Shown here: positions 804-7,668 of the stretch, in pieces
How positions within the stretch are numbered: the stretch's first letter is position 1
Layout: every line of letters begins with the position of its first letter
From: Sulfurimonas sp.
GTDB taxonomy: Bacteria > Campylobacterota > Campylobacteria > Campylobacterales > Sulfurimonadaceae
Assembly: GCA_015663215.1 (NCBI GenBank)
Contig: DQSP01000055.1
Span: 1-10,270 of the forward strand
Reading direction: 5' to 3'
Length of the DNA stretch: 10,270 bases
The notes under the pieces: model-generated
What the model was told of the DNA's origin: nothing
What the model saw: only the letters and a program-made list of their open reading frames with translations
Databases searched by the model: none
Made by a program: the position numbers and the translations under genes

Positions 804-2963
804 ATGTTAAAATCTTTATTCTCTGGTGTATCAGGCTTGCAGTCATCTCAAGTAGCAATGGACATCGAATCAAATAATATTGCAAATGTTAATACAGTGG
901 GTTATAAATACTCCCGTGCAAACTTCTCAGACTTACTTGCACAAACAAAAGCTATCGCAACTGCTCCTCAGGGACAACTTGGTGGTAAAAATCCAGTTCA
1001 AATTGGACTTGGTTCTACTGTAAGTTCAGCAACTCGTATCTTTTCTCAAGGAAGTATTCAAAACTCTGATAAAAATACAGATGTTGCTATTCAAGGGGAT
1101 GGTTTTTTTATCATCTCAGGTGACAATGGAAATACCTATAAGTATACTCGTGCTGGTGACTTTAAGTTTGATGCAGGTGGAAACTTTGTTGACAATAACG
1201 GTTTCATCGCTCAAGGTTGGTTAAGAGATCCAGTAACAGGAAAAGTAGACTCTACAGCTCCTATTACAAGTATAAATATACCTCCTGGTCTTACAACCCC
1301 AGCTTCCCCAACAGGCGAAGTAGTTCTAAAAGCAAATCTTAACTCAGGTCCGCTTATAGAGAGTTTTTCTCCAGCATATGCAGTAGCTACGGGTACACCA
1401 CCAAGTGTCACAACTCCTGGAACTCCTGATGCTATTGATTCAAGGGGTAACCCAATTCCTTCTGGTAACCTAGGGGTAATGTTTAATGAAACTGGAGAAG
1501 CTTTCTCTCTACAAAAAGATCAAGGAGTGTGGGCCTCATTCATCAGTGCGAGTCTTGCTGGTACTGTTGATGTAGCAGCAAGTACAGGTGCCAATGATGA
1601 ACTTGATATCACTTTTACACTTAGTGATGGTTCAACGCAGCAAATAACAACAAGTGGAGCAACAGGAACTGAAACAGCAACAGAAAATGCTAATCGTTAT
1701 ATCTCAGCTATCAATGCTCAGTCAGCTAATACAGGCGTAACAGCAACATTAAATCTGACTTCAGGTAACCCTAGAATAGATTTAACAAATACAAATAGTA
1801 GTGCTACTGCTTCAAAAAATATTAACTTTACAACAGGTGCAAATGATAATAGTGGACTGGTTGCTTCAAATATAGTAACCGCTTACAGATATCAGTATGA
1901 CCCTGCGGCAGCTGCAACAGGGGCAGGAGCAGATAAGACATTTACTACTATGTCTGACCTTCGTTATGCACTGGAGAGACAGGCACAGGCACAGGTAGAT
2001 GTTAATGGAAATAATATTGTTGAGAGTAATATTGAGATTACAGTCAATGAAGAAGGTAAATTTGTTATTAAAAATCCTGGTGGGGCAGCTGATGATTATG
2101 ATATTAATCTAGCAATTACAGCATACACAGATACAGGTGTAACAGAAAATATACGTTTTACACGAAATATGGAAGCTTTAAATTCAGTACTTCCTGCAGG
2201 TAGTGGTGGACAGGCTTTCTCACAAAGTTTTAACGCTGCAACTCATTCAAGTTCTATAGATATATTTGACTCTTTAGGTTCTAAACATACTATACGAATG
2301 GAGTTTAGAAAAACTGCACTTGATATAGCAACGGGAAGTACATGGGATATAAGTATTACAGTACCTGCACCTGCAACCATTGATACTACTGCCCCTTTTG
2401 ATGAAAAAAAAGGAAGTATTCGTTTTAATAGCGATGGCTCTTTAGCAACATACAATCCACCAAATATCTCTTTTAGTGGAAACAATGGTTCTTCCCCAAA
2501 TCAACAAGTGGGTTTCTCTTTTGGTACAGCTAATGCATTTGATGGTATGACATCTTTTGATAGTCGTTCTTCGACTTCTGGAATCTCTCAAGATGGTTTT
2601 ACAGGTGGAGATCTCATAGGTATAAGAATTGATCAGTCTGGTACATTAGTAGGTTCATTCTCAAATGGTCGTTCTTTTGGATTAGCACAAATTGGTATGG
2701 CAAAATTTACAAACAACGAAGGTCTCTCTGCTGAGGGTGGAAATGTTTATAACCAAACAGCAAACTCTGGTGACCCAATCATCGGTACAGCAGCATCAGC
2801 AGGACGTGGATTTATCCAGTCATCTGCTCTTGAAGCATCAAATGTTGACCTCTCACGAGCTCTAACACAACTCATCATCATTCAGCGTGGTTTCCAAGCA
2901 AATGGTAAAACAATTACAACTTCAGATCAACTTCTACAGACACTTATCGGTCTGAAAAACTAG
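804..2963 (+). CDS. flgE: Flagellar hook protein FlgE (full length, 719 aa)
   Basis: This is the structural subunit of the flagellar hook, exported by the flagellar type III system and polymerised outside the cell. The N-terminal rod/hook domain is at residues 7-35 (SGVSGLQSSQVAMDIESNNI, then NTVGYK), followed by the D1 motif GDGFFIISGDNGNTYKYTRAGDF (98-120, read in two parts). A long Thr/Ser/Asn/Ala-rich variable outer region spans about 180-470. The conserved D1 return follows (SSIDIFDSLGSKHTIRMEF, 483-501; GGDLIGIRIDQSG, 601-613) and then the C-terminal helix (EASNVDLSRALTQLIIIQR, 677-695). No signal peptide and no cysteine are seen, as expected for a type III substrate. The length is close to the long Helicobacter hook protein (about 718 aa), well above the roughly 400 aa of enteric FlgE. 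AAAGGA lies 6 bases before the ATG. A sigma-54 promoter precedes it. It is paralogous to the gene at 1-717. Confidence 0.95.
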   Translation: MLKSLFSGVSGLQSSQVAMDIESNNIANVNTVGYKYSRANFSDLLAQTKAIATAPQGQLGGKNPVQIGLGSTVSSATRIFSQGSIQNSDKNTDVAIQGDGFFIISGDNGNTYKYTRAGDFKFDAGGNFVDNNGFIAQGWLRDPVTGKVDSTAPITSINIPPGLTTPASPTGEVVLKANLNSGPLIESFSPAYAVATGTPPSVTTPGTPDAIDSRGNPIPSGNLGVMFNETGEAFSLQKDQGVWASFISASLAGTVDVAASTGANDELDITFTLSDGSTQQITTSGATGTETATENANRYISAINAQSANTGVTATLNLTSGNPRIDLTNTNSSATASKNINFTTGANDNSGLVASNIVTAYRYQYDPAAAATGAGADKTFTTMSDLRYALERQAQAQVDVNGNNIVESNIEITVNEEGKFVIKNPGGAADDYDINLAITAYTDTGVTENIRFTRNMEALNSVLPAGSGGQAFSQSFNAATHSSSIDIFDSLGSKHTIRMEFRKTALDIATGSTWDISITVPAPATIDTTAPFDEKKGSIRFNSDGSLATYNPPNISFSGNNGSSPNQQVGFSFGTANAFDGMTSFDSRSSTSGISQDGFTGGDLIGIRIDQSGTLVGSFSNGRSFGLAQIGMAKFTNNEGLSAEGGNVYNQTANSGDPIIGTAASAGRGFIQSSALEASNVDLSRALTQLIIIQRGFQANGKTITTSDQLLQTLIGLKN

Positions 2964-5114: not shown

Positions 5115-5519
5115 ATGGCAGAAATAGCACTTTTTATTTCTGCATTTCTCGCAGCAACTATTCTCCCTTTTTCTTCGGAAGCTGCGTTTTATTTAGCCAT
5201 CACAAACGAGATGCCCATTTTAAATGCAATGCTAAGTGCCTCCAGTGGAAATATCTTAGCCATAATCCTAAACTACTATCTCGGATTTTTTCTTTATGAA
5301 AAAACAAAAAATAAACTCTTCTCCTCTAAACTTGGAAAAAAATCATTTCTTCTAGGACATAAGTATGGTCAGTATGCTTTAGTGCTATCATGGATGCCAC
5401 TTATCGGTGATCCACTCACACTTGTTGCAGGGTTAGTGCGTTTGAATTTTCTTAGGTTTGTTATTATTGTGAGTACTCTTCGTGTATTACGGTACTATTT
5501 ATTAACACTTATAATATAA
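5115..5519 (+). CDS. yqaA: Small inner-membrane protein, YqaA family (DedA/VTT-like)
   Basis: This 134-aa hydrophobic protein is of the YqaA type (E. coli YqaA has about 142 aa), related to DedA/VTT proteins, some of which move phospholipids between membrane leaflets; the function of YqaA itself is not settled. Visible family marks are FLAATILPFSSEAA (11-24), a re-entrant-like segment with a Pro and an acidic residue, then ASSGN (42-46), and LSWMPLIGDPLTLVAG (91-106), which matches the YqaA signature LSWMPxxGD. About four membrane segments are expected: 3-30, 35-60, 84-108 and 110-134. A basic loop lies at 61-84 (KTKNK, KLGKK). It starts 7 bases after the dehydrogenase stop with only a weak AGG nearby, so it is the last gene of the purT operon. 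There is no obvious functional link to its two neighbours. Confidence 0.85.
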   Translation: MAEIALFISAFLAATILPFSSEAAFYLAITNEMPILNAMLSASSGNILAIILNYYLGFFLYEKTKNKLFSSKLGKKSFLLGHKYGQYALVLSWMPLIGDPLTLVAGLVRLNFLRFVIIVSTLRVLRYYLLTLII

Positions 5520-5529
5520 CTGTTTTGTC

Positions 5530-5546
5530 TTTAGCTATATGCTAAA
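5530..5546. terminator. Weak bidirectional hairpin between convergent genes
   Basis: TTTAGC (5530-5535) and GCTAAA (5541-5546) form a 6-bp stem around TATAT in the 15-base gap between the YqaA gene and the reverse-strand gene, overlapping the stop of the latter. Neither side has a strong T-run after the stem, so this is at best a weak terminator serving both directions. Confidence 0.3.
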
Positions 5547-7655
5547 CAACCAATAATCTCTTGGTTTCCTTTTCGCTTGTTCCTCAGAGAGATGTATTTT
5601 CTTTTTTGACTTTTTTACATAGCATGAGATGATGAGATCTATCTCTGTATCAAGACCAAAAAGGTTAGTATATTGGATAATAAGCTGTTGCACTTTTTCA
5701 AATGCAGCCTGATCCATGAAGATATCTGCAGATCTACTATAGGATAAACGTAAAATGTCACCTATCTTATTACATCTAGATGGAAGTTTTAGTAGGCTAC
5801 CAAAGGTATCTTTTACGGCTTCTATTTTACCTTGTAAAGCATATTTTTCACTCTTGAGTATAAGTTGTGTCCATTGTTGTTCAAGTAAAATTGCTAAATC
5901 ACTTGTTTGTACTGTAGGGTTCACATCGATAAGTGCATAGCAATCAAAAAGATTATTTTGATTGTATAAATCATAAAATTCTTTCATATCATCACAGGCT
6001 ACGTAAAGGTTATCTACTAAGTCCTGATGTTTTGGACTATCAGAAATTTTTTCAATGAGTACTTCTGCTAAGCTTATATTTCCAACTTGAATAAGTTCAT
6101 TTACTTGAACTACACTCTCTTCTAGTTCATTATTGAGCATCTGATAGTGCTGTGTCTCTGCAAATATTTTATTCTCTTTTATAAGCTTAGGAATTTTATG
6201 AAACTCTTTTTTTTCAACAGCTTTTATAAAATGGAGAAATTCTTTATTTTTGTATAAAATAAGTTTAATAAGTGGTCTCTTTGAAGCTACAGACATATAC
6301 TCAGAAAGAAGTATTCTCGCTGATTCAAGATCGTGTAAGAGTACTTTTTTTTGTGCTTCTAGAAATTTTTGCTGCCAAATTTTTTCCATACTTTTATACT
6401 CAATAGTATATTGTAAGGCTGGATATTTAGTAGCTATTGAATATGCTAAATTGAATCGCTGTTCATGAAATATAGTTTGAAACTTAAGGTAGTGTTTAAA
6501 TGCTTCGTATATAAGATAAATTTCATCTTGTTTATGCTTGAGAACTAAAAATGGATTTGTGATTTCTTTTGCAGAACTTACATCGTTCTTTATAAGGTAG
6601 AAAATTGCTTGTTCTAGTTTATGCTGATATTTGTTCTTGAGTCTAGTGTGCTCAGCAGAATATTTAAGCATTGGTGCCGCAACAAGTAGTTTAAATGCTT
6701 GTATGAGTCTATCTTTTTCAATGAGTGTTTTGAGTGTATTGATATTGGTGAGTTCTGTGTGAAGAATGGTTGCATCTTTCAAAACTACAAGGATGGATTC
6801 ATCATCTTTACGGAGTATTTTTTCAATTTTATTTTCAAATGTAAGGTACTGCTTCTCAACAATTTTGAGATTTCTAATATCTACAAGTGTAACAAAATTT
6901 TTATCTGAACTAACAAGTGCATATGCTTGATTTGGCATAAGAACAATGTTTTTTATTTTTAGAAAAGGCATGTTTAGTTTACGTGTGATATGTGTTTCTT
7001 GTAAAGATATAACCTCTAAAACACCATCATTATTCCCACATAGAAGCGTTGATTCATTCACAAAGCAGAGTGCCTCAATTTTTGCTTTTGACCTATTGAT
7101 AACAATAGTGTCCTCTCGAGAATACATATTTATAATATATACAGCACCGCCATAGCCACTACAAGCAATAAGAGTTTTATAAAAACTTACGGCACTTACA
7201 TAGTTATTGGTAATTTTAAATTTTTGTTCACCAGGCATGTAATAAGGAAAAGAGCATAAACGTGCAAGCTGATGTTTACTATTGTATCTGTATTGTAAAA
7301 CACGTCCTTGTGTTGTCCCTACAATTAGATATTTAGAAGACAAATCAAAAGCTATAAGGGTAATTTTTTCATTTTCTAAATGAATAGTTTTAAATATTTT
7401 ATCATGTTTTAGTGCATAGATATAAATATCATGACTATTCGTAATAGCCATAAAATTACCATCTTGACTAAATTCTGTAGCTATTGTACTTGCATTGATC
7501 TCTGGAGGAAGTTTATTCGAGAGTGTCTTATATTTATCCCCTTCTAAAACCCTTACTCCGCTAGTAGTTGTGGAAAAGATAATTGTATTATTTTGTAAAG
7601 CAGCGATTGATATAACAGGAGAATATGCTTTAAAACATTTAGTTGAATGTTGCAG
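5535..7655 (-). CDS. Uncharacterised WD40-like beta-propeller plus 42-residue-repeat alpha-solenoid protein (CTG start, 706 aa)
   Basis: I do not recognise a named family. Residues 8-313 hold seven WD40-like blades, each about 40 residues (near 8-46, 54-92, 97-135, 150-186, 191-228, 231-271, 275-313). They are degenerate: true WD dipeptides are mostly replaced by endings such as GGAVYIIN, GVLEVISL and VTLVDIRN. From about 311 to 688 the protein is helical and repetitive with a 42-residue period (see the repeat entry). A basic tail ends in KPRDYWLFSI. No signal peptide or membrane segment is seen, so it is probably cytoplasmic. The first ATG (7451) would leave out blade 1 and most of blade 2. 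The frame stays open upstream to a stop at 7737-7739 with no ATG, GTG or TTG. CTG at 7653-7655, 6 bases after AAAAGGA, gives a complete seven-blade propeller. Propeller-solenoid proteins usually act as scaffolds; any such role here is inference. It is monocistronic and convergent with the purT operon. Confidence 0.8.
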   Translation of the reverse strand: MQHSTKCFKAYSPVISIAALQNNTIIFSTTTSGVRVLEGDKYKTLSNKLPPEINASTIATEFSQDGNFMAITNSHDIYIYALKHDKIFKTIHLENEKITLIAFDLSSKYLIVGTTQGRVLQYRYNSKHQLARLCSFPYYMPGEQKFKITNNYVSAVSFYKTLIACSGYGGAVYIINMYSREDTIVINRSKAKIEALCFVNESTLLCGNNDGVLEVISLQETHITRKLNMPFLKIKNIVLMPNQAYALVSSDKNFVTLVDIRNLKIVEKQYLTFENKIEKILRKDDESILVVLKDATILHTELTNINTLKTLIEKDRLIQAFKLLVAAPMLKYSAEHTRLKNKYQHKLEQAIFYLIKNDVSSAKEITNPFLVLKHKQDEIYLIYEAFKHYLKFQTIFHEQRFNLAYSIATKYPALQYTIEYKSMEKIWQQKFLEAQKKVLLHDLESARILLSEYMSVASKRPLIKLILYKNKEFLHFIKAVEKKEFHKIPKLIKENKIFAETQHYQMLNNELEESVVQVNELIQVGNISLAEVLIEKISDSPKHQDLVDNLYVACDDMKEFYDLYNQNNLFDCYALIDVNPTVQTSDLAILLEQQWTQLILKSEKYALQGKIEAVKDTFGSLLKLPSRCNKIGDILRLSYSRSADIFMDQAAFEKVQQLIIQYTNLFGLDTEIDLIISCYVKKSKKKIHLSEEQAKRKPRDYWLFSI
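5592..6725 (-). repeat. Nine-unit 42-residue (126-nt) helical protein repeat
   Basis: Within the reverse-strand protein a hydrophobic anchor, usually after a D/G/N/Q-rich turn and followed three residues later by a small residue, recurs at residues 317 (DRLIQA), 359 (NDVSSA), 401 (QRFNLA), 443 (HDLESA), 485 (KEFHKI), 527 (GNISLA), 569 (NNLFDC), 611 (GKIEAV) and 652 (AAFEKV). The first seven intervals are exactly 42 residues and the last is 41. Each unit has an A-helix, a loop often containing Pro, and one or two further helices. The DNA itself is not repetitive, so the repeat is old. It resembles TPR/SEL1/ARM-type solenoids in plan, but I cannot assign a family. Confidence 0.75.
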
Positions 7656-7661
7656 AATAAT

Positions 7662-7668
7662 TCCTTTT
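7662..7668 (-). promoter_or_regulatory. Ribosome binding site that decides the CTG start
   Basis: On the reverse strand AAAAGGA occupies 7668-7662, followed by six bases (ATTATT) and then CTG at 7655. This is the only good Shine-Dalgarno between the upstream stop codon and the first ATG at 7451, and the spacing is ideal. Confidence 0.65.

Follow-up and report, generated by a model that had tools for sequence, protein, structure and literature searches.

What kind of protein lies behind a strict 42-residue helical periodicity in an uncharacterised bacterial gene, and what is the true unit of its repeat? The question is raised by a 10,270-nucleotide stretch of Sulfurimonas sp. DNA (contig DQSP01000055.1 of assembly GCA_015663215.1; hereafter the window), which encodes on its minus strand a 706-residue protein. 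A sequence-only reading had placed nine solenoid units of 42 residues at positions 5592–6725. These coordinates cover the solenoid, and the nine anchors (residues 317, 359, 401, 443, 485, 527, 569, 611 and 652) are present in the minus-strand frame when residue 1 is the CTG at 7655, spaced as claimed by 42 residues seven times and then by 41. Computational analysis of the gene, its predicted fold and its relatives gives a different account of the repeat: 42 residues is the real structural period, whereas the sequence repeat proper is 84 residues long. It also predicts an N-terminal β-propeller, of which the earlier reading made no mention, and a family spread over many Campylobacterota genomes, many of which carry multiple paralogues.

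The 84-residue period is evident in the window protein itself. Lag 84 is its best lag, at 7.8 standard deviations (SD; 300 shuffles), whereas lag 42 reaches 1.8 SD under a plain shuffle and gives p = 0.68 when the pattern of hydrophobic and polar residues is preserved (2,000 shuffles). For the family, we built a profile from an 89-sequence alignment consisting of the window protein and 88 of the 104 homologues found in a first search (those dropped were P0001, five shorter proteins and ten close relatives removed by thinning). In the C-terminal lag spectrum of this profile, lag 84 lies 7.2 SD from the median, lag 42 2.4 SD and lag 126 2.1 SD. Lag 84 scores −0.513 and lag 42 −0.902, and 1,000 column permutations gave scores no higher than −0.904 at any lag, a mild control for lag 42 because permuting columns also removes helix periodicity. 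In a diverse set of 23 members, lag 84 ranks first in 16 and within the top three in 19; of the other four, L056 and L064 have 85 as their best lag, L065 has 87 and L045 has 127. The shuffles and column permutations exclude chance as the source of the 84-residue periodicity.

Unit-by-unit comparison explains where this period comes from: the units alternate between two types, A and B. With the last unit counted as A, profile scores average −0.90 for A–A pairs, −0.80 for B–B pairs and −1.44 for A–B pairs (random offsets −1.79, SD 0.27); the corresponding values in the diverse alignment are −0.24, −0.24 and −0.63 (random offsets −0.84, SD 0.11). Excluding the last unit, and calculating from rounded unit scores, the A–A mean becomes −0.59 (0.07 in the diverse set) and the A–B mean −1.53 (−0.66). 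The lag statistics and the unit scores thus favour 84 residues over a single 42-residue sequence repeat, and the solenoid is four copies of an 84-residue super-repeat followed by a divergent ninth unit. By position, the ninth unit is an A, but it scores −1.37 against A1–A4 and −1.07 against B1–B4 (−0.70 and −0.49 in the diverse set); it resembles neither type well and is slightly closer to B, and we therefore do not regard it as a true A half-unit. Over the first eight units, the A consensus is y..AY.Lie.yPFLkeT..YkkLE..W.k.l.kA.kLL..G. and the B consensus.ekAkelL.PF..ip.Kk..I..Llk.a..h..F..Ah..kn.

An AlphaFold2 model of the full protein, calculated from the 89-row alignment, has a mean predicted local distance difference test score (pLDDT) of 91.3 and a predicted template-modelling score (pTM) of 0.80. 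It consists, in order, of 28 strands (residues 4–301), a short helix and nine stacked helical units. The modelled units start at residues 317, 359, 401, 443, 487, 527, 569, 611 and 652, all within two residues of the anchors. Thus, the part of the earlier reading that held a true solenoid to be present was borne out, and the part that held it to be one strict 42-residue repeat was not. The first helix of each unit is 8–15 residues long and the second helical region about 22–25 (14 in the last unit), the latter sometimes kinked or accompanied by a short extra segment. Four of the nine units have two listed helices; the other five (those at 401, 487, 569, 359 and 443) have three listed helical segments, owing to a short extra segment or a kinked second helix. 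Modelled alone, the solenoid has similar helices (pLDDT 91.8), with a pTM of 0.59 that makes its overall curvature less certain than its local fold.

The N-terminal domain is a ring of four-stranded blades, of which WD40 propellers usually have seven. Its sequence points the same way. A truncated, 638-residue form of the window protein (see below) has matches to 18 Pfam families at E ≤ 10 (for 15, E is below 1e-3), and nearly all of these are WD40 or propeller models; ANAPC4_WD40 alone is above its curated cut-off (23.3 versus 22.9 bits), the other 17 falling below theirs. Sequence matches in the Protein Data Bank (PDB) are to designed propellers (3.2e-24), the best natural WD40 chain following at 4e-12. 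Among the matches listed by VIA-align for the full model, only the propeller is spanned. A PADLOC model, HEAT-ARM_XIII, matches the window protein (E 7.1e-5) and Sulfurimonas paralogue B (3.3e-10) and is without a match in L065; these matches fall in the propeller part, and the defence-system reading that they might invite was rejected. No NCBIfam family matched the 638-residue form at E ≤ 10, and five relatives gave one match, far below threshold. G-beta, WDR5, WDR61/Ski8 and the prokaryotic PkwA, which we take to be without such a solenoid, differ from the window protein, in which the propeller is fused to one.

Table 1 Features of the gene and its product in the window
Feature	Position	Strand	Residues	Remarks
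Whole gene	5535..7655	minus		706 codons + stop; CTG 7655-7653, stop 5537-5535
AAGGA and proposed CTG start	7653..7666	minus		AAGGA 7666-7662, six-base spacer, CTG 7655-7653
Seven-bladed WD40-type β-propeller	6753..7646	minus	4-301	28 strands
Capping helix between propeller and solenoid	6717..6743	minus	305-313	
Helical unit A1	6582..6707	minus	317-358	
Helical unit B1	6456..6581	minus	359-400	K375 nearly invariant
Helical unit A2	6330..6455	minus	401-442	Most conserved unit; Y405, E424 invariant in 23 diverse members
Helical unit B2	6204..6329	minus	443-484	K459 invariant
Helical unit A3	6078..6203	minus	485-526	First helix from 487
Helical unit B3	5952..6077	minus	527-568	Least conserved unit
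Helical unit A4	5826..5951	minus	569-610	
Helical unit B4	5703..5825	minus	611-651	R627 invariant in 89-sequence alignment
Ninth helical unit	5607..5702	minus	652-683	A by position, sequence slightly nearer B
C-terminal tail	5538..5606	minus	684-706	W702 nearly invariant

To which class does the solenoid belong? It matches no Pfam family at E ≤ 1, in agreement with the sequence-only reading that this is neither a standard 34-residue TPR nor SEL1 and that it may mark an uncharacterised family of Campylobacterota. The solenoids of the 23 diverse members match 49 Pfam families, and neither Sel1 nor an ARM family is among the 25 of these that are listed. TPR families appear sporadically: TPR_19 in two of the 23 (best E 0.0075), TPR_6 in one (0.0064) and TPR_4 in one (0.013). 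Xpo1, which we take to be of the HEAT type, matches one member (E 0.0035). Matches off this pattern, to YfdX in 7 of the 23 (best E 3.9e-5) and to NFRKB_winged and SIX1_SD in two each (about 6e-4), probably reflect helical composition.

ARM repeats are about 42 residues long and have three helices per unit. The window solenoid resembles them in its period and in the five units with three listed helical segments, and differs from them in the four units with two. Fold searches weakly favour TPR proteins, and no ARM protein was recognised among the matches listed, an absence that proves nothing. When solved chains were searched with the solenoid profile, the kinesin-light-chain-like 4y6c was the sole match below 1e-3 (E 2.9e-4), although no single stretch of it fell below E = 1. 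Kinesin light chain, unlike the window protein, presumably lacks a propeller. The two solenoids share tandem helical units of 42 residues (nine in the window protein) and an L...G..eeA..lL-like core that aligns in the 42-residue register; they differ in that neighbouring units of the window protein are non-equivalent, making the sequence unit the 84-residue A+B pair. The units thus appear, weakly, to be nearest to the TPR-like 42-residue repeats (42PR), and may instead be of the ARM type. Such repeats, with kinesin light chain as an example, are described in PMC5642895, so that a 42-residue helical repeat outside the ARM class is not as unheard of as had been supposed. The present family adds a two-unit helical repeat of 84 residues, which in the window protein matches nothing in Pfam.

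The first homologue search returned 104 proteins, the named sources of which were Sulfurimonas, Epsilonproteobacteria, Campylobacterota and, once, a hydrothermal vent metagenome. A query with the solenoid alone, taken from a Nautiliaceae member, returned 159, with Lebetimonas, Nautilia and Caminibacter named. Both searches scored the candidates with the most shared words within a length range, the solenoid query covering proteins of up to about 726 residues. WD40-type Pfam labels are found on 117 of the 120 listed proteins of the 159; the three unlabelled ones (P0134, P0195 and P0207) are 294–449 residues long, and one is marked partial. A literature search (WD40 or solenoid combined with Campylobacterota genera, and protocoatomer themes) found no paper on the family among those listed, within a scope that excluded many papers in subscription journals and all preprints.

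Across the class, a full-length profile matches 144 of 397 genomes and 40 of 68 genera, and a solenoid-only profile matches 121 of the 397 genomes, in 28 genera, with one to four matches each, some of them fragments. The two sets are not nested, G041, G166 and G226 being in the solenoid set only, and we read the excess of full-length matches as partly due to WD40 alone. In its own genus, Sulfurimonas, the window protein is matched in 59 of 60 genomes, which makes this an uncharacterised gene family present almost throughout the genus. Of its 31 matching genomes in the 397-genome sample, 30 carry two or three matches. One genome of the genus (G252) and four of another genus in the same family (G191, G288, G305 and G360) have no match. 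Further holders are Nautiliaceae, Hydrogenimonas, Sulfuricurvum and the tcs-49 lineage. In one genome (G235, C1:1104108-1105258) the match is split over two adjoining frames, which may reflect decay of the copy or an error in sequencing. At ten cyanobacterial or planctomycete loci the match is essentially confined to the propeller part; four of those genomes are without a solenoid match. The solenoid profile, built from Campylobacterota only, had no match among 199 genomes from the phylum of a planctomycete, its positive control being the 121 of 397 genomes of its own class; descent from planctomycete proteins gained no support from this search. A tree of 141 proteins, made by a quick method from proteins of more than 650 residues and locus members of more than 500, splits the family into several paralogous groups and places the window copy together with 30 protein-database rows in a set of 31; long branches were flagged, and some joins between them are doubtful.

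Length is nearly constant, at 690–740 residues in 86 of 94 distinct family open reading frames, a few being cut by contig ends. Sequence is not: the 23 diverse members share on average 22% pairwise identity in the propeller and 25% in the solenoid, and Y405, E424 and K459 are the only invariant residues. Conservation peaks in unit A2, at 33% mean pairwise identity in the diverse set versus 20–28% in the other units, and at 44% in the 89-sequence alignment, there narrowly above A4, B4 and B2 (41–43%). In the B units, conserved K375, K459 and R627 recur at repeat positions, and part of the conservation is therefore probably structural.

What might such a protein do? WD40 propellers, like solenoids of the TPR or ARM type, mostly serve to bind proteins. 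The kinds of module, their co-occurrence in 117 of the 120 listed proteins, the near-constant length and the multiplied paralogues best support the view that the protein is probably a cytosolic, two-armed scaffold or adaptor present as several paralogues per cell. The seven-bladed propeller would form a disc and the solenoid a long arm; the propeller would dock one partner and the solenoid hold another, bringing the two together, and the paralogues within one cell would serve different partners. A cytosolic location is suggested by the lack of a hydrophobic signal sequence evident by eye, and we infer binding by both arms, and with it the scaffold role, from the nature of the modules. Three observations weigh against this account. 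The solenoid has no match in 276 of the 397 class genomes, so that the function cannot be universal; an enzyme-like role, checked through Pfam and NCBIfam only, may yet exist; and the neighbouring genes shift between lineages (ilvA, ilvB, Ppx/GppA, dprA, polA, mobA, fliI and ispG), recurring within a lineage and offering no consistent partner. Our weighing of this and the other readings is unaffected by how the ninth unit, the helix count, the ARM likeness and the IFT-A matches (below) are corrected, because none of the readings depends on the class of the solenoid.

Gene neighbourhoods were compared for 94 distinct family genes (99 minus five identical copies) at loci chosen by hand rather than at random, with neighbours named from the Pfam matches of one to four representatives per cluster. 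Upstream genes are ilvA-like in 29 cases (26 within 20 bases), polA on the opposite strand in 15, a polysaccharide deacetylase gene in 10 and a PAS protein gene in three. Downstream, mobA-like genes on the opposite strand (13), dprA (10), convergent fliI-like genes (9) and ilvB-like genes (8) recur. The commonest tightly spaced downstream gene is of the Ppx/GppA type, lying directly downstream on the same strand in 21 of the 94, always within 5 bases or overlapping; Pfam Ppx-GppA was found in all four of the downstream genes tested. Tandem family copies lie between ilvA-like and Ppx/GppA-type genes in Sulfuricurvum (L092:6001-10291 and L093:3061-7357). As gene order changes between lineages, none of these genes is a convincing universal partner.

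The Ppx/GppA genes raise the alternative of a signalling adaptor, one arm of which would bind a signalling protein, such as a Ppx/GppA-type phosphatase (stringent response or polyphosphate) or a PAS protein sensing redox or energy state, and the other its target. Besides the 21 downstream genes, this is favoured by the PAS proteins that overlap the family gene upstream, nominally by 1–16 bases, in three further genes from three families (L064:5476-6609, L065:5738-7027 and L072:6997-7827), two of the three having a response-regulator receiver domain, and by a GGDEF/EAL gene upstream on the same strand in L172, one of two near relatives of the window copy that were examined. However, most of the 21 Ppx/GppA cases come from one genus (13 from Sulfuricurvum, the rest from Hydrogenimonas, tcs-49 and Campylobacterota named less precisely, among others) and so are not independent. 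The window copy has neither a Ppx/GppA nor a PAS neighbour, being flanked by genes for a VTT-domain protein and a fumarate-reductase-type flavoprotein. Such signalling genes are also absent beside L171, the second of the near relatives, which has as neighbours a CobB/CobQ-type gene and one that, by eye, is transporter-like; L172 also has a phosphomannomutase-type gene beside it, and the genes beside the window copy differ from those beside both relatives. The gene downstream of paralogue B is ilvB-like, and an equally good case for something else could be made from the 26 close ilvA-like genes upstream or the 10 dprA genes downstream. We consider a signalling adaptor unlikely. The part that follows the PAS domain in the upstream PAS proteins has no Pfam match at E ≤ 1e-4.

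The domain order of the window protein suggests a second alternative, that of a bacterial membrane-coat-like protein of the protocoatomer type, the propeller–solenoid paralogues of which would form a lattice lining the membrane on its inner side, in the manner of eukaryotic coats and intraflagellar transport complex A (IFT-A). A propeller at the N-terminus with stacked helix pairs C-terminal to it is exactly the coat architecture as defined in PMC2799638, and the one-chain arrangement is shared with protocoatomer proteins, IFT-A subunits and the membrane-coat-like proteins of the PVC superphylum treated there. That 2010 survey reports the architecture outside eukaryotes in the PVC superphylum only, and proteins with both domains in any order in most proteomes; a 2019 review (PMC6449795) adds that many prokaryotes have the two domains unfused and mentions building blocks in Asgard archaea, and later surveys may list more bacterial cases.

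In Foldseek, the two lowest E-values for the full model belong to IFT-A chains (9a2d_C, 5.6e-13 over 901 columns; 8bbg_A, 1.1e-12 over 813 columns), with alignments that exceed the propeller in length, gaps being counted among the columns. Divergent paralogues within a cell, as in the 30 Sulfurimonas genomes with two or three matches, would also parallel paralogous coat subunits. Nevertheless, it is mostly the propeller that produces these E-values, since chains consisting of a propeller alone, WDR5 among them, lie within a factor of about four, and the IFT-A matches have template-modelling scores (TM-scores) of 0.16–0.20 and root mean square deviations of 45–63, which means that the overall shapes differ. 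The solenoid alone gives no Foldseek match at E ≤ 0.001, and the five matches of its profile to solved chains at E ≤ 10 include no coat protein; no sequence homology to the solenoids of these coat proteins was detected. In contrast to them, the window protein has one propeller and a short, sequence-regular 84-residue solenoid, and belongs to Campylobacterota, not to the PVC superphylum; as noted above, no solenoid match was found in the planctomycete's phylum. No membrane, vesicle or GTPase link was found, and there is no GTPase gene among the named neighbour clusters. Convergence is allowed for by PMC2799638 itself. A membrane-coat-like role is thus improbable, and the bolder proposal, that Campylobacterota paralogues, outside the PVC superphylum, build a true coat-like lattice in bacteria that are small, open to genetics and devoid of an endomembrane system, whether as an independent invention of the protocoatomer principle or as its remote relative, is more improbable still.

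The protocoatomer hypothesis draws on the near-restriction of the propeller-then-solenoid order to eukaryotes. Its conservation in a Campylobacterota family suggests that bacteria in which compartments are not known can evolve or retain this architecture. The family is a small model in which to ask whether architecture alone predisposes a protein to scaffolding on membranes. The last alternative, a repeat protein specific to the lineage that has no single conserved molecular function and whose paralogues drift while keeping nothing but their shared architecture, would suit the low identities, shifting neighbours and patchy presence, but it is hard to reconcile with the three invariant residues, the conservation of A2, the near-constant length and the 59 of 60 genus genomes, and we give it little credence.

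The limits of the gene deserve comment. The open frame runs on the minus strand from 7736 to the stop at 5535 and contains no ATG, GTG or TTG upstream of 7451, the position of its first ATG. A start there would yield the truncated, 638-residue form, and this form, 68 residues short, is the one entered in the protein database (P0001); a gene caller restricted to ATG, GTG and TTG removes those 68 residues (7451-7655, minus strand). Family relatives start at the aligned residue, with M in most of the rows shown and L or V in a few, and the codon there is TTG in two of the nearest relatives (L171 and L172). We prefer the 706-residue reading for this reason, and CTG is probably the start codon of the window copy.

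The window spans its full contig, which belongs to a 1.7-Mb draft genome of 73% completeness. Three copies of the family gene occur in this genome, one more than the two matches typical of a genome of the genus: the window copy (C231), one on C85 (35% identity) and one on C29 (19% identity). The possibility, raised by the three copies, that the window is a stray contaminant was rejected, as its PurT, the one gene compared, has no close counterpart elsewhere in the assembly, the next match being 33% identical. Elsewhere in the window, an FlgE-type flagellar hook protein gene is preceded by an open reading frame with an FlgE/F/G-type C-terminal domain (31-717 and 804-2963, plus strand), and the small VTT-domain (DedA-like) protein that flanks the family gene is encoded at 5115-5519 on the plus strand, with a score of 31.5 bits against a Pfam cut-off of 33.9.

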